Positions 3,315 through 54,324 of a DNA stretch of 54,441 nucleotides are shown here, piece by piece (position 1 is the first letter of the stretch; each line of letters begins with the position of its first letter). The position numbers were made by a program, and so were the translations under genes. This DNA is from Candidatus Omnitrophota bacterium (lineage in GTDB: Bacteria > Omnitrophota > Gorgyraeia > 1-14-0-20-64-10). The stretch is from positions 1 through 54,441 of the forward strand of contig JACQCH010000006.1 of NCBI GenBank assembly GCA_016201735.1, read 5' to 3'. The notes under the pieces are model-generated. The model was not told the DNA's origin and ran no database searches. It worked only from the letters and a program-made list of their open reading frames with translations.

Positions 3315-4999
3315 AGATGAAGGGCGCGCAGATTCTGATTGAATGTTTGAAGCGGGAAGGGGTTGACGTGATCTTCGGCTATCCCGGCGGGGCGAACCTG
3401 CCGATCTACGACGCGCTGTACGACGCGCCTCTCAAGCACATCCTGGTGCGGCACGAGCAGGGGGCGGCCCACATGGCCGACGGATACGCCCGGGCGACGG
3501 GAAGAGTGGGTGTCTGCCTGGCGACGTCGGGGCCGGGCGCCACGAACCTGGTGACGGGGCTGGCCACCGCTTTCATGGATTCGATCCCGGTTGTGGCGAT
3601 CACCGGCCAGGTCCGCTCCTACTTAATCGGCAACGACGCCTTTCAGGAGGCGGACGTCTGCGGGATCACCCGCCCGATCACGAAACACAATTTTCTGGTC
3701 AAGGATGTGAATCTCCTCGCTCAGACGATCCGGGAGGCCTTTTACATCGCCGGGACCGGGAAGCCCGGCCCGGTGCTCGTCGACATCCCGGTCGATATCT
3801 CTCAGGCGGAGATTGAATTCGTCTGGCCGGAGAAGGTCGAGATCCGTGGCTACAAGCCGGAGCGGTTCATGGAAGGGCACCGGGGCCAGATCGACAAGGC
3901 GGCGAAGCTGATGGTCGAGGCGAAGAAGCCGGTCATCTACGTCGGCGGCGGGGCCATCATGTCGCAGGCCACGGAGGAGGTCCGGGAGCTGGTGGATTTG
4001 ATCGGCGCTCCCATCACGACCACCTGCATGGCGCTGGGGATCTACCCGGAGGACAAACCCTGCTCCCTGCGGATGCTGGGGATGCACGGGGCCGCTTCCA
4101 CCAACTACGCGGTCCAGTACTCCGACCTGTTGGTGAACATCGGTGCACGGTTCGACGACCGGGTGACGGGGAAGGTGGAGACCTTCTCGCCGAAATCGAA
4201 GAAGATCCACATCGACATCGACCCGGCCTCGATCGGAAAGAGCGTTCAGGTGGATGTGCCGATCGTCGGGGACGTGAAACGGGTCTTGAAGGAGCTGATC
4301 AAGGAGATCAAGGCGCTCAAGAAGAAGCCGGACTACAAAGAATGGTGGGACCAGATCCATGAGTGGCAGAAGAAGCATCCCCTTTCCTACTCGAAAAACG
4401 GCGCCAAGCTCAAGCCCCAGTACGTGCTGGAGGTCCTCTCCGACCTGACGAAGGGGGAGATCCTGATGACGACCGATGTCGGCCAGCATCAGATGTGGGC
4501 CTGCCAGTTTTACCGATGGACCCGGCCCCGGACCTACATCACCTCCGGGGGGTTGGGCACGATGGGCTACGGCCTGCCGGCCGCCATCGGGGCGCAGTTC
4601 GGCCGGCCCAAGGAACGGGTGATCTGCTTGAGCGGCGACGGATCGTTCGTGATGAACATCCAGGAGTTGGCCACGGCGGTGGACCACAAACTGCCGATCA
4701 AGACGATCATCCTCAACAATTTTTACCTGGGGATGGTCCGCCAATGGCAGGAGATGTTTTACAAGAAGCGGTTCTCCTACAGTGCGATCCGGCCGCCGGA
4801 TTTCGCCAAGGTGGCGGAGGGGTTCGGTGCCCGGGGGGTCACGATCCGGAAAGCCGAGGAGGTTCGGCCGACCCTGGAGAAGATTTTAAAGGACAAGGAG
4901 TGCTGGGTGGTGGACTGCCTCTGCGATGAGGAGGAGAAGGTGTTCCCGATCATCCCGCCGGGCAAGGCGATCGATGAGATGATCATGGACATGGCGTGA
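3311..4999 (+). CDS. ilvB: Acetolactate synthase large (catalytic) subunit IlvB
   Basis: This ThDP-dependent enzyme condenses two pyruvates to 2-acetolactate, or pyruvate with 2-oxobutyrate, the first common step of branched-chain amino-acid synthesis. The start at ATG 3311 gives 562 residues beginning [17 protein letters not shown] and has AAGGAG upstream. Visible are the ThDP glutamate region ([15 protein letters not shown]...HEQGAAHMA), the FAD-binding middle domain, and the C-terminal ThDP motif GDGSF followed by [12 protein letters not shown]. It overlaps ilvD by 4 bases. The regulatory subunit gene ilvN follows after a 126-base structured spacer. Confidence 0.97.
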
Positions 5000-9111: not shown

Positions 9112-9910
9112 CGCCGTCTTTCTCTTGGGGCTGATGGTCGGCTCCTTCCTGAACGTCTGCATCTGGCGTCTGCCCGATGGGGAGCAGGTGGTCCGGGGAC
9201 GTTCTCATTGCCGGGCCTGCCGGCAGACGATTCCCTGGTTCGACAATGTGCCGCTGTTGTCGTTTCTTTTGCTGCGGGGAAGATGCCGCTTCTGCCGATT
9301 GAGGATTTCCTGGATTTATCCGGCGGTGGAGCTGGCGGCCGGGCTTCTTTTTCTGGCTGTCCTGAACCGGTTCGGGCCGACATTCACGGCCCTCGCGGTC
9401 GGAATTTTTGGGGCGGCCCTCATCGTCATTTCGGTGGTGGACGCTCAAACGATGATGATCCCCGATGAGATCACGAAGCCCGGCCTGGGGGCGGCTCTCG
9501 GGGTGAGTTTCCTGGTTCCGAGTTTGCATGGAACGGCGAACCGGTGGGAATCCCTAGGTTTATCTTTTCTCGGAGCCCTCACGGGGTGGGGATTGATCTT
9601 TGGGATGGCCTTCGCGGGGAGACTGCTTTTCCGGAAGAAGCTTAAGGCGATGGGAGAAGAGGAAGCGGTGGGGGGCGGGGATCTGAAGTTGATGGCGATG
9701 GTCGGGGCTGGGATCGGTTCAGCCAAGGGCCTCTTGGTGGTTTTGTTTCTCGCCCCTTTGCTGGGGTCTCTGATCGGATTGACGATGAAGATTCGATTCC
9801 ACCGGGATCTAATTCCCTACGGGCCGTTTCTCTCCCTTGGAACCTTGATCGCCCTCTTCTGGGGAGATTCGATCATCGGCTGGTATCGGGGACTTCTTAT
9901 AGGGTATTGA
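9086..9910 (+). CDS. Prepilin peptidase / N-methyltransferase (A24 family)
   Basis: This is an inner-membrane aspartic protease that cleaves and N-methylates type IV pilin-like precursors. The 274-residue protein has an N-terminal cytoplasmic zinc region with two CxxC pairs (CRAC and CRFC), the GSFLNVCIWRLP signature, and the two catalytic aspartates in VVDAQTMMIPDE and GGGDLKLMAM. Six to eight hydrophobic segments are visible. ATG 9086 lies inside the aroE end and has AGGAGG 7 bases upstream. No pilin genes are in the window, so the substrates lie elsewhere. Confidence 0.93.
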   Translation: MNISAVLGSAVFLLGLMVGSFLNVCIWRLPDGEQVVRGRSHCRACRQTIPWFDNVPLLSFLLLRGRCRFCRLRISWIYPAVELAAGLLFLAVLNRFGPTFTALAVGIFGAALIVISVVDAQTMMIPDEITKPGLGAALGVSFLVPSLHGTANRWESLGLSFLGALTGWGLIFGMAFAGRLLFRKKLKAMGEEEAVGGGDLKLMAMVGAGIGSAKGLLVVLFLAPLLGSLIGLTMKIRFHRDLIPYGPFLSLGTLIALFWGDSIIGWYRGLLIGY

Positions 9911-25070: not shown

Positions 25071-26084
25071 ATGAAGATTCTCGTGATTGAGCTGAGCAAT
25101 CTCGGGGACGCGATCCTGACCTATCCGGCGCTGGAATCTCTGTGGGCGGCGTTTCCCGATGGGGAGTTTCATGTTTTGGCGGGGCCCCGGAGCGCGGATC
25201 TGTTCGCCGGGGAGCCGCGGGTCAGGAAGGTTTGGGTTTGGCGGAAGGAAGGATCGGTTTTGAAGCGGCTCGGTCTCATCCCTCAGCTCGCTCTCCAAAA
25301 GTTTTCATGGGTGGTGGATTTTCGGCGCTCGCTGATCCCCCTTTTCTTAGTCGGCGCGCGGCGCGCCCGGATTCCCCGGTCGACTTCCGTCAACGGGACG
25401 CACCGGGTGCAGCAGCACCTATCCCTCCTCACCGATTTAGGGATCTCCATCCGGGAGGAAAAATCTCCTTTGCCGTTCGGGCCGGAGGAGGAACGTTTTG
25501 TCGGCGAACAGTTAGGATCGGACCGGCCCGTTGTGGTGATGGCCCCCGGCTCCCGGAGCCACTTGAAGCGGTGGCCGGCCCAGCGATTTGCCGCCGTGGC
25601 CGACCGGTTGGTCGAAGAACAGCAGGCACAGATCATTTTTGTCGGCGATCAGGAAGAGCGGCCGATCGTCGATTCGGTCTTAAGCGCGATGAAATCGCCG
25701 ACGAAAGATCTGACCGGCCGGACCTCTCTGCGTCAACTGGCCGCCCTGCTGGCGAAGAGCGACCTTCTGATCACCAACGACAGTGCCTGCCTCCACGCCG
25801 GGCAGGTGATGGGGACGCCGACGGTGGCAATCTTCGGCCCGACCGACGAGAAAAAATACGGTCCTCGCAACCCCAACTCCGTCGTGGTCCGCAAACAGCT
25901 CGTCTGCGCCCCCTGCGAGCGGGCCCTCTGCCCCTACGGCCACGAGTGCATGAACTGGCTCGACTCCGACGAGGTTTTCTCCGCTGCAGTGAAGATTCTA
26001 CGGGGTGACACAGCCGTTCATGCTGAGCCCTTCGGCTCCGTTCGTCCTGAGCCTGTCGAAGGACGAACGGGACAGGGAAGGTAG
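25071..26084 (+). CDS. GT9 family glycosyltransferase (heptosyltransferase-like)
   Basis: This 337-residue protein begins MKILVIELSNLGDAILTYPAL, the family 9 start, and has MAPGSRSHLKRWPAQRF, a TGRTSLRQLAAL segment, and the donor-site NDSACLHAGQVMGTPTVAIFGPT. A later motif CAPCERALCPYGHECM holds four cysteines, as in several GT9 enzymes with a short Cys-rich loop. ATG 25071 matches family starts better than ATG 25041. The last 22 or so residues (from AVHAEPFG) are encoded by the palindromic repeat 26013-26070. Confidence 0.88.
   Translation: MKILVIELSNLGDAILTYPALESLWAAFPDGEFHVLAGPRSADLFAGEPRVRKVWVWRKEGSVLKRLGLIPQLALQKFSWVVDFRRSLIPLFLVGARRARIPRSTSVNGTHRVQQHLSLLTDLGISIREEKSPLPFGPEEERFVGEQLGSDRPVVVMAPGSRSHLKRWPAQRFAAVADRLVEEQQAQIIFVGDQEERPIVDSVLSAMKSPTKDLTGRTSLRQLAALLAKSDLLITNDSACLHAGQVMGTPTVAIFGPTDEKKYGPRNPNSVVVRKQLVCAPCERALCPYGHECMNWLDSDEVFSAAVKILRGDTAVHAEPFGSVRPEPVEGRTGQGR
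26013..26070. repeat. CTGAGC-TGTCGAAG palindrome, copy 2 (compound)
   Basis: A degenerate left unit (ccgttcatgctgagc) is followed by a full copy at 26038-26070 with perfect arms CCGTTCGTCCT and AGGACGAACGG. Both are translated as the tail of the GT9 protein. Confidence 0.8.
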
Positions 26085-35848: not shown

Positions 35849-38800
35849 ATGCGAGGCCTTAACCAAACCTTAAGCCGTTTCACCGCTTTTCTTCTTTCTC
35901 TCATTCTATTTTTCAGCCCCACCTCTCCAGTCGGAGTTTATCCCGAGCCGAGTCGAGGGGCCCTGCGCGTCCAAGAGCCCCGAAATTCCTCCACCCAGCA
36001 GCTTCTTCAATCCGGTCTGGAGGAGAGCCTCGAGCATCCGTTCTTTAGTGCGATGCAGAAACGCCAGGCCCGGGTGCGGGAACTGGCCGTCCGGGCTCAA
36101 GGGCTTGGCATCGACATCGGATTTACTCCGGAGGAAGTGGATTCCTTAAGCAAGCCGCGTGAACTCCTCCAGAGGAAAATCCAATGGAGGTTAGACAACG
36201 GGCAGATCAAGGAAGTATCGGTCGTGCGGGTCAAAGATACCGTCACTCGAGGAAAGCGGCCGGCCAAAGGGGGCATCCGGTACATCTTGAGCCCCAGGGT
36301 GCTCAAAGGAGATCCTTTCGAGAAAATTTGGAACCGATTTTTGAAGGGGAATCCTACCCCGGAGCAGGCGCGGCAATTCCTGGAAGGACTGGCATTGCAG
36401 GTGGCCAAGGCTTTAGCCAGAGGAATGAGTTGGAAGATTGCGCTGGTTCAATTGGACGAGTTCTTAGGAGGAGCCAAAGGGGACTGCTTTGGCCTTGATG
36501 TGGATGATCGGCTTCAGATCGTTCCCTTTAAAGATTCGTTCAGCCCCGGCGAGCTTGCCCGCTTGGACCGGGCCATCGGCCGGATGTTGGCTCAGGAGCA
36601 AGCGGTGGGTCCTCAGATTGATGTCCCCGCCCCAGACGTGGACACGAACAGCGGCACCATGACCCGGATGGAAGAGGAATATCTGAAGGTGCAGGTCGAA
36701 ACCCCCCAAAGTTCCCTCCATCGCGACCATCCCGAGTTGGCCAACGAATTGGCGGGACTGCTGGAGCGTTCCCAAGGCCAAGAAGTTCCCCTCTTGAAGC
36801 AGACGGTGGATTATGAGCGGACCGGTAAGGCCGTGCGGGAACTGGCCGTTTTTACCGGGAAACCGGTTGAATTAGGCGGGTCTCTCGTCAGGGCAGATGC
36901 CACCGGCTTAGGCGGCCTGATCGTGGCGGAAGAGATTGTCAAACGGAAGGAGCCCGAACGAAAAGATTCCCCACGTCCCTTGGAAGGGATGACGGTTGCT
37001 GTTCACGGTTTCGGGAAAGCTGGGGAGCCTTCCGCCCGCCTTTTCACTCAGGCGGGGGCCCGGGTTTTGGCGGTCAGCGACAGTACCGGTTATTTGTACC
37101 GGGCGGAAGGATTCACGTTGCCGCAGTTGCAGCAGTTGGAGCGGTTAAAACGGGCGGGCAAGCCCTTCAATGAACGTCGTGGGCTGGGTCTTCCCAGCGT
37201 CTCTTTCTTCCCGGGTCATCGGAGGTTGTTGGAGCTGAAGGTCGACATTCTGGTCCCCGCGGCGATCGAGTTGGTGATCACACAGGAGAACGCCGCCCGG
37301 GTCCAGGCCCGCTATGTGATCCCGGAGGCGAACGGGGCCGTGACTCCGGAAGCAAATGCCCTTTTGGCCCAGAGAGAAGTCACCGTGGTTCCGGATTCCT
37401 TGGCCAGCGCCGGGGGGGTGATTGTTTCCTGGCTGGAGATGCTCCAGAACTTTGAAGGAGTCCAATGGAGGGCGGAGGATGTCGAAAAAAGACTCCGAGA
37501 ACGATTGGTCAATGCCGTTGATCTGCTTTGGCGAACGTGGCAAGAGCTCAAGGAAGTGGAGCCCGGAATCGATCTCGCCACAGCGGGGGATCTCCTCTCG
37601 GTCCGCCGGTTGGTGGAACGTTTCGTTCGGGAGGAGAAGCAGCCCCCATTTATTCCATGGAACGGATCGTCGGACGTGCTGGTCCGGCAGGGCCCTTATC
37701 TTCCTCTGAATGGCTATCCCATTGAATTGGTTCAGTACTTGCAGGATCAGGTGCTGTTAAGTCCTTCTCTGCGGGAGGTGTACGGGAAGGAGATTCCGTT
37801 AGTTCCTCTTCCGGAAATTAGCTGGAGAAAACCGGTGTATCTTTGGCGGGAACCGACCGTGCTTCCTACGGGCTCCACCAAGCCGAGGATGCTGGCGGTT
37901 CTCTTCGATCTTTTTCTCAATGGGGATCCCTATAATCTGTCGGGGCTTCATGGCAAGCCGCTTCCCTTGACGCTTGGGACCCAATCCACCGGAAACCACG
38001 GCCAGGCAATGGCCTGGTTCGCCCACTTTCTGGATCAGTTGAATCAGGGAAAGCCGCCCGCGTCCCAGGTCGCTGTTCCGAAAGTGACGGTTTATTCTGG
38101 AAAGGACATCCCCCCCTTAAAGAAAAATCGGATGCAAAATCTTGGAGCCGTGGTCCGGGACGAGTTTGAGGATTACAGCAAGGCCCGGGCGGCGGTCGAA
38201 AGGGACGCCCAACAGCAGGATCGGTTTCTCTATTGGAGACATGGCGTGTTTCCCATCAACATGGGCAATGCCACATCGGCGGTGGCGCTTCATCAGCGGC
38301 TTGAGGCCGATCCCCGCCTGAAAGGAAAACGGATCGCCGTCGTGACTGCCGCCGGCGCGGGGGGGCGAATCGCGGGGTTGGCCGCCGGCTTAAGGCAGCT
38401 TCGGGGGGATTCGGTGAAGGTGATTGCCGCGCAGACCGATCGGATCGATCCGGTTTTCGAAGCGGCCTTGGCCGGTCATCCGGTGCGGATCTCCCTGCCT
38501 CCCAAACGGGTGGCGGAGGATGGGATCGCGGTGGATGCCATGGAAGAGGAGGCGATGAGAGTTTTTCTGGCCGCGGGTGATGCAGTGGTTCGGGTGCCGT
38601 ACGGAGAAGCTCTTTCCGCCACCCGTTGGCTTCATGAGGAATTGGCGAATAACGGCAATGGCAATTCGGTCACCGAAGTGGTCACAGGGGTTTCTCTGGC
38701 GGCCCTGTTGAAATACCCCAACCTGTTCAAGGATTCCGATGCCGTCATCATCGATGAGACTGGAATCAATGTGGATCCTGAAGACCTCTGGCAGGTTCGC

Positions 38801-40963
38801 GCGGCTCCCTTGCCGGAGGAATTAGTCGGCCTGGAGGAATCGGAGTTAGATCCGGCGGTACGGGAGATCTTCTCTGATTTCTTCGTGCAGCGCATTGACG
38901 AACCGCTTCTTTGGTTAGCGAATCGCCTAAGCCGCCTCGAGACGAAAGAGCGGCGGGTGCAATTTCTCAATGCTCTCATTTGGTTCCGGGATGAAGAGTC
39001 GTTCGCCGAGCCGTTGGCCGATGCCTTCCTTAAAAAACCCCACCGACCGGGCGCCAAGACCGTCCGAGAGATTCTCCTGCGGGCCGTGCGGGAGGATCCC
39101 TCTTTGCACGGGGCGTTCGCGCTGGGGTCCCTCTTGGCGTTTCGACTTAACTCCGACCTGCTCCGGGTTCCGAAGGGATTCGACCGCCGCATCCTAGTGG
39201 GGATGCGGGTGACGAGCCAGGATCCGGCCTCGCGTCAGGTCCGTCCGCTTGGGGATACAAATTTTCCCCCCGCCGGTCGGTCCCAATTTCCAACCTCACC
39301 GGCCTTGATGAAGTTTGCGGCTGAGAGGGGAGATCTGAATACGGAACGGAAACAAGAACCGGATGTGATCGCGATCACTCCCTTCGAAAGGGATAAGAAT
39401 TCCCATCTCGGTCGAGCGGCCCTCTATCAAGATCTTTCCCCTCTTTGGGATGGGGAGCTTGCTTCCCTCGAGGAGTTGGAGATGGATTTAGCGAATCTCT
39501 CCTTTTCAATGCAGGTTGAAGAAGAGTACCGTCGGGAGGAGGCTTGGGCTATGCCCAAAGGGCTTTCCCAAGAACGGGCGGAGGCGATCCGTCACAACCG
39601 TCAAGAAATGGAAGTGGCCGTCGTACACGAGATCTATCCTCGGCTGCGGGAACAGCTGGAGAAAAGACACGATCTTGCGTGGAAGAAGAAAGATTGGGGG
39701 CTGCTGCATCAGACGCTGGGGTTGTGGATTGAGCTGGAGTACTCCTTCGCGGAATATCTGACAGTGAGCCCCGGCGTCTGGAACGTTTCGGAGCATGAAA
39801 GGGCTGGGAGACTACTTCAGGAGGAGTTGATCGGTCTGCGCCAACGGCAAAAGGAACTCCTGATGGGTCGGCCAGCGCAGGCCGCTGGTCCCTCGGTTTC
39901 ACTCGGGGCCGGGCTGGAGGAGAATTCTCCTCAGGGATCGGGGATTGATTGGGTGGGGGATATTTATCATCTCAACAAGGATAAGGAAACCAAAGAAATC
40001 AGCGATCAGTGGAGAACGATATTCTTCTCTTTTCGCCCCAATCGCTCCGCGAAGGTTTTCACCAAGTCGCCCGCCGCATGGGACTCCCTTCAGAACGCGG
40101 CCCTTTCTAACGGCGACGGTTCTGACAGCCACATTCTGCCCGAGGCCATCGAGATCTTTAGGAAGGAGATAGAACCTTTTCTGAAGGCGAGAGTGATACT
40201 CCTGGATGGCAGCGGCCAAGGCAGGGAGGTTTCGGTCAAAGAACTGCAGCTCACGAATCTGTATCGGGATTCCACATTGCGAGTCAGCGGTCTTTTGGGA
40301 AACGAAGCGGGAAAACTGGAAAGAAGAGGATACCCTTTCGATGTGGAAATCTCTGTGGATGGCGGCAAAAATTGGAGAAGATCCAGCGAACGGGGTTACT
40401 TCCAGTTTGAGCCGGGGCTGGCGGTAAGACCTCCCGTTATCCATCGCTTCACCGTCGAGGCCGGGTTGGAGGAAACCGCAAAGGCCATTCAGGGCATTCT
40501 CCGAGGATTGGCTCGAGCCGAGAGTCCAGAGGGGATGGTTCTCATCGGGCCGGGAACACTGATGGGGGATGGAATGCCAGCGCTCTGGCCCCTCTTGATG
40601 GAATTGAAAGCGGTGCTGCCCTCGGAAGAATGGGCTAAACTTCAGAAACGGATCATCGCGTACACTGAGGATGAAAGGCTTTCAACCTTATTGAAGGAAG
40701 CAGGCTATGAAGCTCCTCGGTGGCCTTCACAGGTGAATGAACTGCTGGCGGCTCGAACTCCCAGCAGCTTGACTCTCTATGCGACTCCGGCGGAATGGCT
40801 CCTGCGTGGGGAATTTCCGCAGGTTACCCAGACGATCGAGCTGACTCCCCAAAATTACTTATTGGAATTGGCCCGCTTGTTGGAGCTCCTCGGCTACGCG
40901 CATCCGAAGCCGGAACAGTTGCAGAATTTTCCAGAATCACTCATCGAGTACCAGTCTGCGTAA
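35849..40963 (+). CDS. Exported giant fusion: glutamate dehydrogenase, fold-type-II PLP enzyme, unknown tail
   Basis: This 1704-residue protein starts with a signal peptide (FTAFLLSLILFFSPTSPVG), then SGLEE at 55-59. Residues 80-620 are a glutamate-type dehydrogenase with all key residues: K140 in KGGIRY, K196 in SWKIAL, K210 in GGAKG, D263 in VPAPDV, GFGKAG Rossmann loop at 387-392, and PEANGAVTPEAN. Residues 640-960 resemble threonine dehydratase/Trp synthase-beta enzymes: Schiff-base lysine K678 in TGSTKPR, STGNHGQ at 713-719, phosphate loop AAGAGGR near 834-840. From 960 on I recognise nothing; GLEE recurs at 1355-1358 and 1539-1542. It lies 19 bases after gltB. Whether it acts outside the cytoplasm is unknown. 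Confidence 0.82.
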   Translation: MRGLNQTLSRFTAFLLSLILFFSPTSPVGVYPEPSRGALRVQEPRNSSTQQLLQSGLEESLEHPFFSAMQKRQARVRELAVRAQGLGIDIGFTPEEVDSLSKPRELLQRKIQWRLDNGQIKEVSVVRVKDTVTRGKRPAKGGIRYILSPRVLKGDPFEKIWNRFLKGNPTPEQARQFLEGLALQVAKALARGMSWKIALVQLDEFLGGAKGDCFGLDVDDRLQIVPFKDSFSPGELARLDRAIGRMLAQEQAVGPQIDVPAPDVDTNSGTMTRMEEEYLKVQVETPQSSLHRDHPELANELAGLLERSQGQEVPLLKQTVDYERTGKAVRELAVFTGKPVELGGSLVRADATGLGGLIVAEEIVKRKEPERKDSPRPLEGMTVAVHGFGKAGEPSARLFTQAGARVLAVSDSTGYLYRAEGFTLPQLQQLERLKRAGKPFNERRGLGLPSVSFFPGHRRLLELKVDILVPAAIELVITQENAARVQARYVIPEANGAVTPEANALLAQREVTVVPDSLASAGGVIVSWLEMLQNFEGVQWRAEDVEKRLRERLVNAVDLLWRTWQELKEVEPGIDLATAGDLLSVRRLVERFVREEKQPPFIPWNGSSDVLVRQGPYLPLNGYPIELVQYLQDQVLLSPSLREVYGKEIPLVPLPEISWRKPVYLWREPTVLPTGSTKPRMLAVLFDLFLNGDPYNLSGLHGKPLPLTLGTQSTGNHGQAMAWFAHFLDQLNQGKPPASQVAVPKVTVYSGKDIPPLKKNRMQNLGAVVRDEFEDYSKARAAVERDAQQQDRFLYWRHGVFPINMGNATSAVALHQRLEADPRLKGKRIAVVTAAGAGGRIAGLAAGLRQLRGDSVKVIAAQTDRIDPVFEAALAGHPVRISLPPKRVAEDGIAVDAMEEEAMRVFLAAGDAVVRVPYGEALSATRWLHEELANNGNGNSVTEVVTGVSLAALLKYPNLFKDSDAVIIDETGINVDPEDLWQVRAAPLPEELVGLEESELDPAVREIFSDFFVQRIDEPLLWLANRLSRLETKERRVQFLNALIWFRDEESFAEPLADAFLKKPHRPGAKTVREILLRAVREDPSLHGAFALGSLLAFRLNSDLLRVPKGFDRRILVGMRVTSQDPASRQVRPLGDTNFPPAGRSQFPTSPALMKFAAERGDLNTERKQEPDVIAITPFERDKNSHLGRAALYQDLSPLWDGELASLEELEMDLANLSFSMQVEEEYRREEAWAMPKGLSQERAEAIRHNRQEMEVAVVHEIYPRLREQLEKRHDLAWKKKDWGLLHQTLGLWIELEYSFAEYLTVSPGVWNVSEHERAGRLLQEELIGLRQRQKELLMGRPAQAAGPSVSLGAGLEENSPQGSGIDWVGDIYHLNKDKETKEISDQWRTIFFSFRPNRSAKVFTKSPAAWDSLQNAALSNGDGSDSHILPEAIEIFRKEIEPFLKARVILLDGSGQGREVSVKELQLTNLYRDSTLRVSGLLGNEAGKLERRGYPFDVEISVDGGKNWRRSSERGYFQFEPGLAVRPPVIHRFTVEAGLEETAKAIQGILRGLARAESPEGMVLIGPGTLMGDGMPALWPLLMELKAVLPSEEWAKLQKRIIAYTEDERLSTLLKEAGYEAPRWPSQVNELLAARTPSSLTLYATPAEWLLRGEFPQVTQTIELTPQNYLLELARLLELLGYAHPKPEQLQNFPESLIEYQSA

Positions 40964-41024: not shown

Positions 41025-41106
41025 GGGGACGTGGCGGAACTGGCATACGCGCGTGCTTGAGGGGCACGTGCCGAAAGGCTTGGAGGTTCAAATCCTCTCG
41101 TCCCCA
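41025..41106 (+). tRNA. tRNA-Leu (anticodon GAG)
   Basis: The acceptor stem GGGGACG pairs with CGTCCCC. The D arm is GCGGAACTGGCATACGC, the anticodon stem CGTGC/GCACG has loop TTGAGGG (anticodon GAG, reads CUC), there is a long variable arm GCC-GAAA-GGC as in class II tRNAs, and the T arm is GGAGG-TTCAAAT-CCTCT. The discriminator is A, and CCA is not encoded. Confidence 0.95.
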
Positions 41107-41160
41107 CAGAACTTTTATTTGCTACCCAGAGAGGATTTGAAGGGAGCTTCTCGTCCCCAC
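41087..41160 (+). repeat. Rearranged partial copy of the tRNA-Leu 3' end
   Basis: Just downstream of the tRNA, AGAGGATTTGAA (41130-41141) is the exact reverse complement of the tRNA T-arm strand (41087-41098). TCTCGTCCCCAC (41149-41160) directly repeats the acceptor end (41096-41107). This may be a scar of integration or a processed trailer hairpin. Confidence 0.55.
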
Positions 41161-43498: not shown

Positions 43499-43527
43499 TT
43501 GACATCAAATTCCATGTTTTGTATGAT
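43499..43527 (+). promoter_or_regulatory. Strong sigma70-type promoter for the desulfurase-like gene
   Basis: TTGACA at 43499-43504 and TATGAT at 43522-43527 are separated by 17 bp. Transcription would start near 43534, about 6 bases before the ATG at 43540, implying an almost leaderless message. Confidence 0.65.
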
Positions 43528-43539
43528 GAAGGTTCCCCC

Positions 43540-44694
43540 ATGGAACGAATCTATCTGGATTATCAGAATCAAGCGGTGTCGGACAGCCAGGTGGTCTCGG
43601 CGGTCGAGGCGGCTTTGCGGCTTCCCGGCAACCCCTCCAGCCCTCATCGGGAGGGGAGGGGTTCCTCCCAGGCGGTCGAGAGGGCCCGGGCTTTGGTGGC
43701 GGGTTTGATTAACGCCTCGGCTCCCAAGGAGATCACCTTTACCTCTTCGGGGACCGAGGCGAACGGGTGGGCCTTGGGCGGCTTGACGAAAGCCCATGAG
43801 AGCAGGGGCAGGCGGATCCTCCTTTCCGCCGTCGAGCATTTGTCGGTTCTTCATCCGGCGAGGCGGCTCGAAAAGGAGGGCTGGCAGGTCACGGTTCTCC
43901 CGGTCGACCGGTGGGGCCGGGTTTCCCCTGACGCGGTGGAGGAGGCTTTAACTCCGGAGACGGTTCTGGTTTCGATCCAATGGGCCAATGGGGAGGTCGG
44001 CACGCTCCAGCCGATCGCCGAATGCGTCCGGCGCGTGAAGGGGCGAGGGATTTTGTTCCACTGCGACGCGGTGGCGGCGGTGGGCCAAGTTCCCATCGAT
44101 CTGGTCCAAGTTCCGGTGGACGCCCTGTCATTAGCGGCCAACACCTTCGGCGGTCCCGCCGGGATCGGGGCGTTATTCCTGCGCAAGGGGGTACGGATTC
44201 AGCCCCTGTTCGTCGGGGGAGCACAGGAGGAGGGCCGGCGGGCCGGGACGGAGAATCTGTTGGGGATCGTCGGGATGGGAAAGGCGGCGGAGCTTGCCAA
44301 GGCCCGTTTGCCCGAGAGCGAAAAACAGCTCGTTTCTTTGCGGGATCGGCTGATCCGTGGAATTATGGAGCGTCTGCCGCAGGCGGTTTTCAACGGGCAC
44401 CCGACCGAGCGGCTGCCCGGCCATGTCAGCGTGTCATTCCCGGGAGCGGACGCGGAGGCGTTGGTGCTGGCCCTGGATCTGAAGGGGGTGGCCGTCGGGA
44501 TCGGCTCGGCCTGCACGAGCCGGACGATGAAGGCCTCGCAGGTTTTGAAAGCGATGGGGATCGCCGACGAGCAGGCCTTAGGCACGATCACCTGCACGCT
44601 GGGACCTGAAACAACGGAGGAACAGATCGATCGGGTGCTGGAGATTCTGCCTCGAGTGATAACTTCCGGTCACCCTGAGCTTGTCGAAGGGTGA
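43540..44694 (+). CDS. Cysteine desulfurase-like protein lacking the PLP lysine
   Basis: The 384-residue protein aligns along its length with NifS/IscS class V enzymes: SSGTEANGWALGG, EH with H100, WANGEVGTLQPI, GGAQEEGRRAGTEN, and the sulfur-accepting loop SACTSRTM with C325. But the segment that should read SAHKxxGPKG is AANTFGGPAG (around 199-208): His and the Schiff-base Lys are replaced by N201 and T202. The N-terminal DNAAT-type motif is also altered (LDYQNQA). Ordinary desulfurase activity is therefore unlikely. Related lysine-less IscS proteins are known (Archaeoglobus fulgidus). Neighbours thiC and nadA need Fe-S clusters. The C-terminus (HPELVEG) and stop come from a repeat. Confidence 0.85.
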   Translation: MERIYLDYQNQAVSDSQVVSAVEAALRLPGNPSSPHREGRGSSQAVERARALVAGLINASAPKEITFTSSGTEANGWALGGLTKAHESRGRRILLSAVEHLSVLHPARRLEKEGWQVTVLPVDRWGRVSPDAVEEALTPETVLVSIQWANGEVGTLQPIAECVRRVKGRGILFHCDAVAAVGQVPIDLVQVPVDALSLAANTFGGPAGIGALFLRKGVRIQPLFVGGAQEEGRRAGTENLLGIVGMGKAAELAKARLPESEKQLVSLRDRLIRGIMERLPQAVFNGHPTERLPGHVSVSFPGADAEALVLALDLKGVAVGIGSACTSRTMKASQVLKAMGIADEQALGTITCTLGPETTEEQIDRVLEILPRVITSGHPELVEG

Positions 44695-52986: not shown

Positions 52987-54324
52987 ATGAGAATTCGAAA
53001 GTTTTTGCCCCGAACCCTGGCGCTTTTCCTAAGCCTGAGCGTCGGTCTGCCTGCTTTTGCGCTCCATCAACTGGAGCCCAGCGAAAATTCCGGTCTTGAG
53101 GAAAAAATAAAACAGGCGTTCGGAAGTTCCACCTCCCCTTCTCTTGTAGAAGTCGGTCGAGGAGCGACGGCTGGGTTGGAGGAAAGGGGAAACTATGCCG
53201 ATGCGGTAAATCACTGGATTGATCGGCTAGAGAGCTCTCTGCGCTCTCTGCGGCGGAAGGCCGGCAAGTCAGAAGCCCAAAAGTCTCAAATCTTGGTTTT
53301 AGACAAAAGGTTTAAGGCCGAAATCGCACCACTCCGCGGGGACCCGGATGCCCTCTTCGCCTACTTGGAGAAACAAGACCGGCCTCCATCGTCGTTTCAA
53401 GATAAAGTTCGGGACGAACTGGCTTCTCTTTCGAACCTTCCTAAATCACAGATTATCTTCGTTCCTCCGGGTGATCTTCTTATCTGGGGTCTCATGGGAA
53501 AGATCGATGAGGAGAAATTTAAAGCGAATGTCGCTGGAGTGGCAGTCCACCTTAAAGATCAAAGCGGCGGCCGTTTAAAACATTTTATTTTGGTTCGTAA
53601 TGACTCGAAAGATTTTAATGGGCTCGTCACCTTGGCTCATGAAATCGCACACACTCAGCAGAGCGATCGGGCTCGTGGTTTGATGTATAACGATCCACTT
53701 GCAAAGGTCATCGCGGAGGGGTTCCAGGGCTATCGGGAGTACGAGATCCTTTTGTTGTTGGCTTCCCGCAATACTTCGGTAGGCCGCCAGGTAAAGAAAG
53801 TTATTGCAGACACTTTGCGCGGTATGCATCAGGGGTTGCCCTTGTTGGCTCGGCTCCATGGATTTCATTCGCCGAGAAAAAGATCTGATTCTTTAGGATA
53901 TTCCCTCTCCGGGAGGTTATGGGTCTATCTCGGGAGTAGTTTTGGTACTAACCCGGCCTATGAAGAGGAAAGGGAATTTGTCCGGAGATTGATTGCGCGT
54001 GTTGGTATCGGACCTGTGCGAGCTTTGTATCAGCAGGGCAACTTGAAGAAACTTCGTTACGCTCCGGGTCTTGGTCCGGTTCGGTTTGACGCCCTACGGT
54101 TGGCTTTCTTGAAATTTGATATAATCGGTCGGGATTTCGGATACAGAAGAGAAACAACCATTCGCTTTGCTGCTGAGACAATTCTTAATTCGAAAGTTTG
54201 GCGAGCTGAGGATACGCGTTTATTCCTTAAGCCCTTTCTTGACGGATTGGAGGGTCTTTCCTTCAACTACGGCGGTGATCTCCGAATCTTGCTAAAGATT
54301 TTTAGTATCAGTTTAGCCCGATGA
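52987..54324 (+). CDS. Exported putative zinc metallopeptidase with GLEE motifs
   Basis: The 445-residue protein has a signal peptide (FLPRTLALFLSLSVGLPAFA, likely cleaved after AFA near residue 25). Two GLEE motifs follow, NSGLEE ending at 39 and TAGLEE ending at 66, then a helical region. The segment LVTLAHEIAHTQQSD contains HExxH, the zinc and catalytic site of metallopeptidases, and AEGFQGYREYEI downstream offers a Glu third ligand. I cannot assign a known peptidase family. It sits alone after korB with its own possible promoter. It shares the signal-plus-GLEE layout with the giant fusion at 35849, suggesting a common export or processing route. Confidence 0.7.
   Translation: MRIRKFLPRTLALFLSLSVGLPAFALHQLEPSENSGLEEKIKQAFGSSTSPSLVEVGRGATAGLEERGNYADAVNHWIDRLESSLRSLRRKAGKSEAQKSQILVLDKRFKAEIAPLRGDPDALFAYLEKQDRPPSSFQDKVRDELASLSNLPKSQIIFVPPGDLLIWGLMGKIDEEKFKANVAGVAVHLKDQSGGRLKHFILVRNDSKDFNGLVTLAHEIAHTQQSDRARGLMYNDPLAKVIAEGFQGYREYEILLLLASRNTSVGRQVKKVIADTLRGMHQGLPLLARLHGFHSPRKRSDSLGYSLSGRLWVYLGSSFGTNPAYEEEREFVRRLIARVGIGPVRALYQQGNLKKLRYAPGLGPVRFDALRLAFLKFDIIGRDFGYRRETTIRFAAETILNSKVWRAEDTRLFLKPFLDGLEGLSFNYGGDLRILLKIFSISLAR

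Follow-up and report, generated by a model that had tools for sequence, protein, structure and literature searches.

Why does a gene of an Omnitrophota bacterium join a glutamate dehydrogenase (GDH), a PLP-dependent dehydratase-like enzyme (PALP) and a long tail behind what appears to be a signal peptide? The gene is found in the window analysed here, the whole stretch of 54,441 nucleotides of one contig, and the first-pass annotation of this DNA had described its product as an exported protein of just this composition. The ORF, the Pfam matches and the signal-peptide-like N terminus bear that description out. Giant ORFs are known in the Omnitrophota and have been called poorly understood (Seymour et al. 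2023, PMC10066038; PMC12057145). Those described are adhesin-like, transmembrane or carbohydrate-binding, and roles in the coat, in adhesion and in cell-wall degradation have been proposed (PMC10066038; PMC12057145). Is the present gene an isolated recycling enzyme, or does it belong to a wider class of proteins? Here we investigate its organization, its relatives within the phylum and a short motif that recurs at the borders of its units.

Organization of the giant gene

The ORF at positions 35849–40963 has an ATG start and encodes 1704 aa, with internal stops absent in the open-frame check. It lies on the forward strand, as do its features given below, and starts 19 bases after gltB. A terminator scan of the region around gltB and the giant gene returned matches not above chance. 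A tRNA-Leu (gag) is present just downstream, at 41025–41107.

Residues 1–30 (35849–35938) form the predicted signal peptide, which has a hydrophobic core and resembles the stereotyped N-termini of other chains with multiple GLEE motifs. Judged by a hydrophobicity rule and by this resemblance, the signal peptide placed here by the first-pass annotation appears to be the typical N terminus of a recurring family type. Between it and a conserved LR is an insert, YPEPSRGA (residues 31–38, 35939–35962), at a position where other chains carry AFALR. The insert is probably repeat-derived, and the identical DNA word is found in another locus (L042). Inserts of probable repeat origin (YPEPSRGA, YPELSRRA and SVSDT-type) recur between signal peptide and LR, in this gene, near position 3551 of L042 and in chains of genome G002, and it looks as if palindromic elements had landed repeatedly at the cleavage region. 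Copies of a short repeat (PELVEG / SKD type) are present at 26046, 31218, 44674 and 50267 of the window, inside ORFs or at their ends; examples are a copy in the N-terminal extension of gltB and another at the C-terminus of the ORF at 43519–44694.

The GDH unit comprises about residues 66–600 (36044–37648), as determined by Pfam, PDB alignment and an AlphaFold2 model. ELFV_dehydrog_N is matched at residues 180–278 and ELFV_dehydrog at 343–586 (6.9e-55), both above the curated cut-off (one with 186.8 bits against 23.4, the other with 51.7 against 25.3). The score against the GDH equivalog was 199, its cut-off being 750. K140, K196, K210 and D263 align with the GDH active-site motifs KGG-R, M--K, GG-KG and PA-D, the last three residues being invariant across 15 aligned sequences, whereas at the position of K140, which the giant protein keeps, some exported relatives have Q, G or R. 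A model of residues 57–993 has a complete GDH fold over 57–596, with pLDDT about 90 and TM up to 0.91 to solved GDHs (Foldseek).

The PALP domain, serine/threonine dehydratase-like, is at residues 649–967 (37793–38749; 2.1e-28, 99.9 bits against a cut-off of 35). K678, which we take to be the Schiff-base lysine, falls in its motif GSTKPR. The PALP part of the model is poor, only two sequences having covered this domain. The motifs expected of active enzymes, including the catalytic lysines and D263 listed by the first-pass annotation, were found in both domains, so on sequence grounds the two look capable of activity.

Could the fusion be an assembly error that joined separate genes? This was rejected because a distant genome of the phylum, G058, has the identical GDH-PALP order in a single continuous ORF. 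Relatives with a downstream start and no signal peptide would have spoken against export, and the opposite pattern was found: giant-type GDHs of seven families sit in long, cysteine-poor proteins, most of which bear a signal peptide. In a tree, twelve giant-embedded GDHs from these seven families form one supported clade with the giant protein (100/99), and the 11 normal-size GDHs sampled fall outside it. The giant-type GDH is found in long ORFs across the phylum. A GDH-like match (G113:C3:84848-85363) lies within an open frame of 44,856 aa, the upper end of open frame lengths in the phylum. Within its own genome it is the sole GDH above the family cut-off, and five normal-size PALP enzymes are present in addition to the PALP of the giant protein. 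A homologue search found no GDH homologue in the eight other genomes of its family (that of G000), and the recycling link with gltB proposed at first pass would accordingly have no counterpart in family relatives. Genome contigs were also scanned for close relatives; the one match, to PALP in a Gemmatimonadaceae MAG, was weak.

As had been noted at first pass, the tail matches nothing: residues 994–1704 (about 710 residues) have zero Pfam matches, and comparison with PDB sequences returned spurious matches only. Modelled by AlphaFold2 from the single sequence, it reached a pLDDT of 39. The protein does carry GLEE four times, at residues 56, 994, 1355 and 1539. The motifs are SGLEE at residues 55–59 (36011–36025), VGLEE, with a weaker first residue, at 993–997 (38825–38839), and AGLEE at 1354–1358 (39908–39922) and 1538–1542 (40460–40474). 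They delimit tail unit 1 (residues 998–1353, 38840–39907) and tail unit 2 (1359–1537, 39923–40459), each without a Pfam or PDB sequence match, and the C-terminal tail unit 3 (1543–1704, 40475–40960). The tag is absent between GDH and PALP. Many chains with multiple GLEE motifs appear to share an alpha/beta domain of about 150–190 aa at the C-terminus, possibly a common module, of which tail unit 3 is a candidate member; in a leave-one-out test with profiles, 37% of C-termini were recognised at p < 0.05, that of the giant protein not being among them (p = 0.17).

Enzyme chains and their boundary motifs

The giant protein is one of dozens of exported-type, almost cysteine-free enzyme chains in the family of G000. 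A second chain of the same kind is present in the window (52987–54324, forward strand, 445 aa), with two GLEE just past the signal peptide, and an ORF at the contig edge (263–1066, forward strand) with one SAGLEE (566–580) is possibly part of a further chain. It is highly probable that a class of exported, tag-delimited enzyme chains exists. The suggestion of an undescribed system made at first pass therefore stands as a candidate; the single GDH-PALP recycling enzyme that it proposed as the unit does not, and is replaced by this class of motif-marked exported multi-enzyme chains.

The contents of the chains are divergent versions of cytosolic enzymes. Among them are GDH, PALP, two FBPase types, PfkB, GHMP kinase, phosphoglucomutase, nucleotidyl and hexapeptide transferases, epimerase, aldo-keto reductase (AKR), aminotransferase, transaldolase, HAD, metallophosphatases and PP2C. 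Fic, receiver and HTH domains are also found, as are WD40, TPR and HEAT scaffolds. Inspection of modules by eye showed catalytic motifs to be kept in most, namely in those of PfkB, HAD, AKR, PP2C, GlpX, GHMP, aminotransferase and metallophosphatase type. The majority of chain segments have no Pfam match.

Multi-motif chains share a stereotyped N-terminal sequence ending like P-A-F-A-L-R. Of the multi-motif chains, 16 of 23 and 24 of 27 have signal-like N-termini; for other ORFs the counts are 15 of 128 and 23 of 96. Cysteine makes up 0.14% of the chains and 1.04% of the other ORFs in the genome of the giant gene (p = 5e-11), and 0.14% against 0.96% in G002 (p = 2e-12), the comparison set being ORFs picked mechanically from the same motif-chosen stretches, some false ORFs included. 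The giant protein has one cysteine. Together, these N-termini and the cysteine depletion argue for a site outside the reducing cytoplasm. A C-terminal sorting motif followed by a membrane helix and basic tail (PEP-CTERM / LPXTG type) was absent by inspection, and the C-termini look soluble.

The boundary motif is abundant. Across 52 chains (95,351 aa) taken from four genomes of the family, [AST]GLEE occurs 210 times against 1.19 expected from composition, about 176-fold, a statistic that rests on stretches selected around motif matches, with pattern counts from whole genomes beside it. G and both E are practically irreplaceable, and L is replaced only by M (29 sites, equal enrichment). The position preceding G is occupied by A, S or T and only rarely by G or V, and proline is enriched three to seven residues upstream. 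The median spacing between motifs is 297 residues. Across the whole genome carrying the giant gene, the AGLEE codon pattern has 75 matches, clustered in long ORFs, against 18 for the reversed pattern. By the same control AGLEE is enriched in eight of nine family genomes, by up to 141 against 14; the ninth is G001, with 9 against 17. In about 190 other genomes of the phylum it is near the control level.

Is the motif a repeat at the level of DNA? As the whole cause this was rejected. There are 24 DNA spellings across the 52 motif sites of the genome, with variation in synonymous codons, and the commonest 15-mer spellings are in the AGLEE frame in 30 of 30 and 44 of 44 copies, which indicates that selection acts on the protein. 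Codon choice for AGLEE is biased toward one 15-mer, and AGLEE may have spread partly by DNA copying.

The motif is placed between units. None of 93 motifs lies inside a Pfam domain, where chance placement would put 16.3. In example chains a WD40 propeller at residues 851–1147 sits between motifs at 847 and 1148, a motif at 1346 separates FBPase from HAD, and PP2C begins 31 residues past a motif. In 37 of 40 signal-peptide proteins the first motif is no more than 60 residues past the signal peptide core (8.2 expected), and the tag therefore also precedes the first unit. Where different chains share homologous segments, 66% of these start at a motif in each of the two proteins, against 7% expected. 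The chains thus hold several complete units each, and the motif that recurs at the borders is absent within the units, as looked for in a polyprotein. Not every module junction is tagged, the exceptions including that between GDH and PALP and that between UDPGP and epimerase in G017.

One module of 1,800 residues has been followed across six genomes. The AGLEE upstream of it is in the same column in G000, G002, G005, G007 and G008, and the one downstream is conserved in G000, G002, G005 and G007, the G008 contig ending before that boundary. G001 has AGLEG and AGLES at the aligned sites. The module is directly behind the signal peptide in relatives, and in G000 other modules, about 1,526 residues in all, come before it, which is why we consider that modules are shuffled at the tag.

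Other families of the phylum have a different tag. The giant ORFs of families f40 and f44, and of a few others, carry the strict R[SA]E[VAMLIT]R, with 34 copies in an ORF of 11,701 aa (G017) and 29 in one of 11,858 aa (G058), about 0.2 being expected in each; these ORFs contain 5 and 6 cysteines. R[SA]E[..]R is enriched genome-wide in the tag-bearing families (e.g. 160 against 11, 277 against 27) and not in G000. Again, none of 63 copies is inside a Pfam domain (12.6 expected). Tags enclose each of the following units of G058: transketolase, PfkB, GDH-PALP, hexokinase, phosphoglucomutase, UDPGP and KDPG aldolase. There GDH-PALP is bracketed by RAEVR at 3842 and RSEAR at 4805, and in the giant protein by the GLEE at 56 and 994. 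Because the same unit is bracketed by two different tags in two lineages, the marking of units itself seems to be what matters.

Several further features of these giants were observed. Near residues 3472–3700 of the G058 giant ORF, VIPAKAGIQLDPHLRGDD peptides are found in linkers beside R[SA]E[AV]R tags, and repeats seem to be tolerated in linkers. The 11,701-aa exported-type chain of G017 contains an MraZ domain at residues 9253–9310, flanked by tags at 9245 and 9373. Neither tag is present in some of the phylum's giants (G133, G160, G092), and some are richer in cysteine (G235, G190, G251). At four loci of G133, G160 and G092 (L118, L119, L122 and L123), adjoining genes encode cysteine-poor exported-type proteins with a common N-terminal domain, LPAPGTM..FxPVxxKG..NPLxFDFIxDxG, some of which carry the same GDH type with neither tag.

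Possible roles of the tag

The reading that we favour, by a small margin over its being wrong, is that the chains are secreted polyproteins processed at a clade-specific tag. A Sec-type signal peptide would take the nearly cysteine-free chain of fused enzymes out of the cytoplasm. The tag, [A/S/T]-G-[L/M]-E-E, would mark the start of the first unit and many of the unit boundaries; in the giant protein it would set off the GDH-PALP module (residues 59–993) and split the tail into three units. A protein most probably reads it, the best candidate being an endoprotease that would cut at the tag, perhaps at the bond between the small residue and Gly. Cutting would release separate enzymes, as in a viral polyprotein, and R-[S/A]-E-[V/A/M/L/I/T]-R may be used for the same purpose in other families. 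Once released, GDH-PALP may act beyond the cytoplasm of the cell itself, in the periplasm, at the surface, or in a prey or host cell, the last of which would offer ATP and NAD(P). By deamination it would turn glutamate (or a related amino acid) and serine/threonine into 2-oxoacids and ammonia. We infer the recognition of the tag by a protein, the bond cut, the activity of the enzymes and their place of action. Cleavage at the tag itself we rate as somewhat better than an even chance; counting against it are the junctions that lack a tag, the giants that are tagless or richer in cysteine, and a putative protease and fragments that are as yet hypothetical.

The main rival of cleavage is docking without cutting, which we consider rather unlikely. 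The chains would stay whole after export, with each unit docked by its GLEE or RSEVR to a receptor on the surface or on a scaffold, in an ordered multi-enzyme complex. A strict motif ahead of every unit, the first included, and the proline-enriched flank before it would suit such a complex, as would the so far hypothetical status of processed fragments. However, two unrelated tags in different families would require two receptors, the receptor is purely hypothetical, and a small residue-Gly-acid pattern in a flexible interdomain linker has, we infer, the usual look of a cut site. Alternatively, nothing may recognise the tag: chains would have been fused by recombination at short shared linkers, and GLEE and RSEVR would have spread along as relics. 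The codon bias toward GCCGGGCTGGAGGAG, the shuffling of modules at the tag and the repeat-derived peptides that linkers also gather are what such a history would leave behind, yet we hold it to be improbable. A passive linker is made less likely by the strict and conserved amino-acid profile, with its free synonymous change and L/M equivalence. In G017, 24 RSE[VM]R sites have 23 DNA spellings; the tag column is kept between orthologues at 55–62% identity and the preceding linker is not; and the tag stands ahead of the first unit, where no fusion is needed.

A further question is whether the chains leave the cytoplasm at all. Outside it, no supply of cofactors is evident for enzymes that depend on NAD(P), ATP and PLP, which counts against export, and the hydrophobic N-terminus might instead be an anchor or a signal for an internal compartment, so that the enzymes act near their cofactors. 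We give this little credence, given that signal-peptide-like ends followed by LR or a variant are found in 32 of 40 proteins, that cysteine is strongly depleted, and that the same features occur in other families whose exported-type giants have classical AxA-type signal peptides. Returning to processed, secreted chains, we put forward only tentatively a wider proposal, that these bacteria maintain a second central metabolism of carbon and nitrogen (kinases, phosphatases, transketolase, aldolases, sugar-nucleotide enzymes and GDH) outside their own cytoplasm, by means of cysteine-poor polyproteins cut at a clade-specific five-residue code, perhaps inside prey or host.

Comparison with known systems

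Domain searches yield few matches in the giant exported proteins of this part of the bacterial tree, which is why these have remained unexplained. The boundary code cuts the chains into units of about 300 residues, each of which can be modelled, searched and expressed singly. If the tag is a cleavage site, then bacteria own a chromosomal polyprotein system, and it has two codes or more. Should the enzymes be active outside the cytoplasm, their export would amount to a new lifestyle trait, exported central metabolism, and would bear on how these small, apparently host-dependent cells feed. In the open literature, mostly excluding subscription papers and preprints, we found no description of the tag, of such enzyme chains, or of a 'GLEE motif' or 'bacterial polyprotein'. 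The size class of giant ORFs is known; the tag code and the exported-metabolism content are apparently undescribed.

Cytosolic GDHs (GdhA, NF040817 and relatives) have in common with the giant protein both Pfam domains, the residues K196, K210 and D263, and the fold. Unlike them, the giant GDH has a signal peptide, three inserts, almost no cysteine, and a fusion to PALP and the tail. Its PALP shares the SxK, S-GNHGQA and glycine-rich phosphate-binding motifs of serine/threonine dehydratases and serine racemase (fold type II), but scores only about 30 bits to solved relatives of these enzymes, which leaves a substrate assignment unsupported.

The giant ORFs described in the Omnitrophota are likewise very long exported-type ORFs of unexplained role, and the phylum, the one searched here, is uncultured (PMC10066038; PMC12057145). 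Unlike them, the units here are divergent central-metabolism enzymes, poor in cysteine, with a clade-specific motif at their borders. At 5.1 kb, the giant gene is far under the 20-kb threshold for Omnitrophota giant ORFs, and the longest examined in its family is 18.5 kb (G002); ORFs of about 35 kb in G058 and G017 exceed the threshold.

Viral polyproteins also have several functional units per chain and a recurrent short motif at the borders, which suggests that the tag-marked exported chains are a bacterial version of such polyproteins. The chains differ in being encoded by bacterial chromosomal genes, with dozens of different chains per genome, in having a signal peptide, and in that cleavage and the protease are only proposed. 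The PEP-CTERM, T9SS CTD and dockerin systems likewise have a short signal that recurs on exported proteins and serves sorting or docking. Those signals are C-terminal or folded modules, whereas the GLEE tag is internal, repeated and N-terminal to the units.
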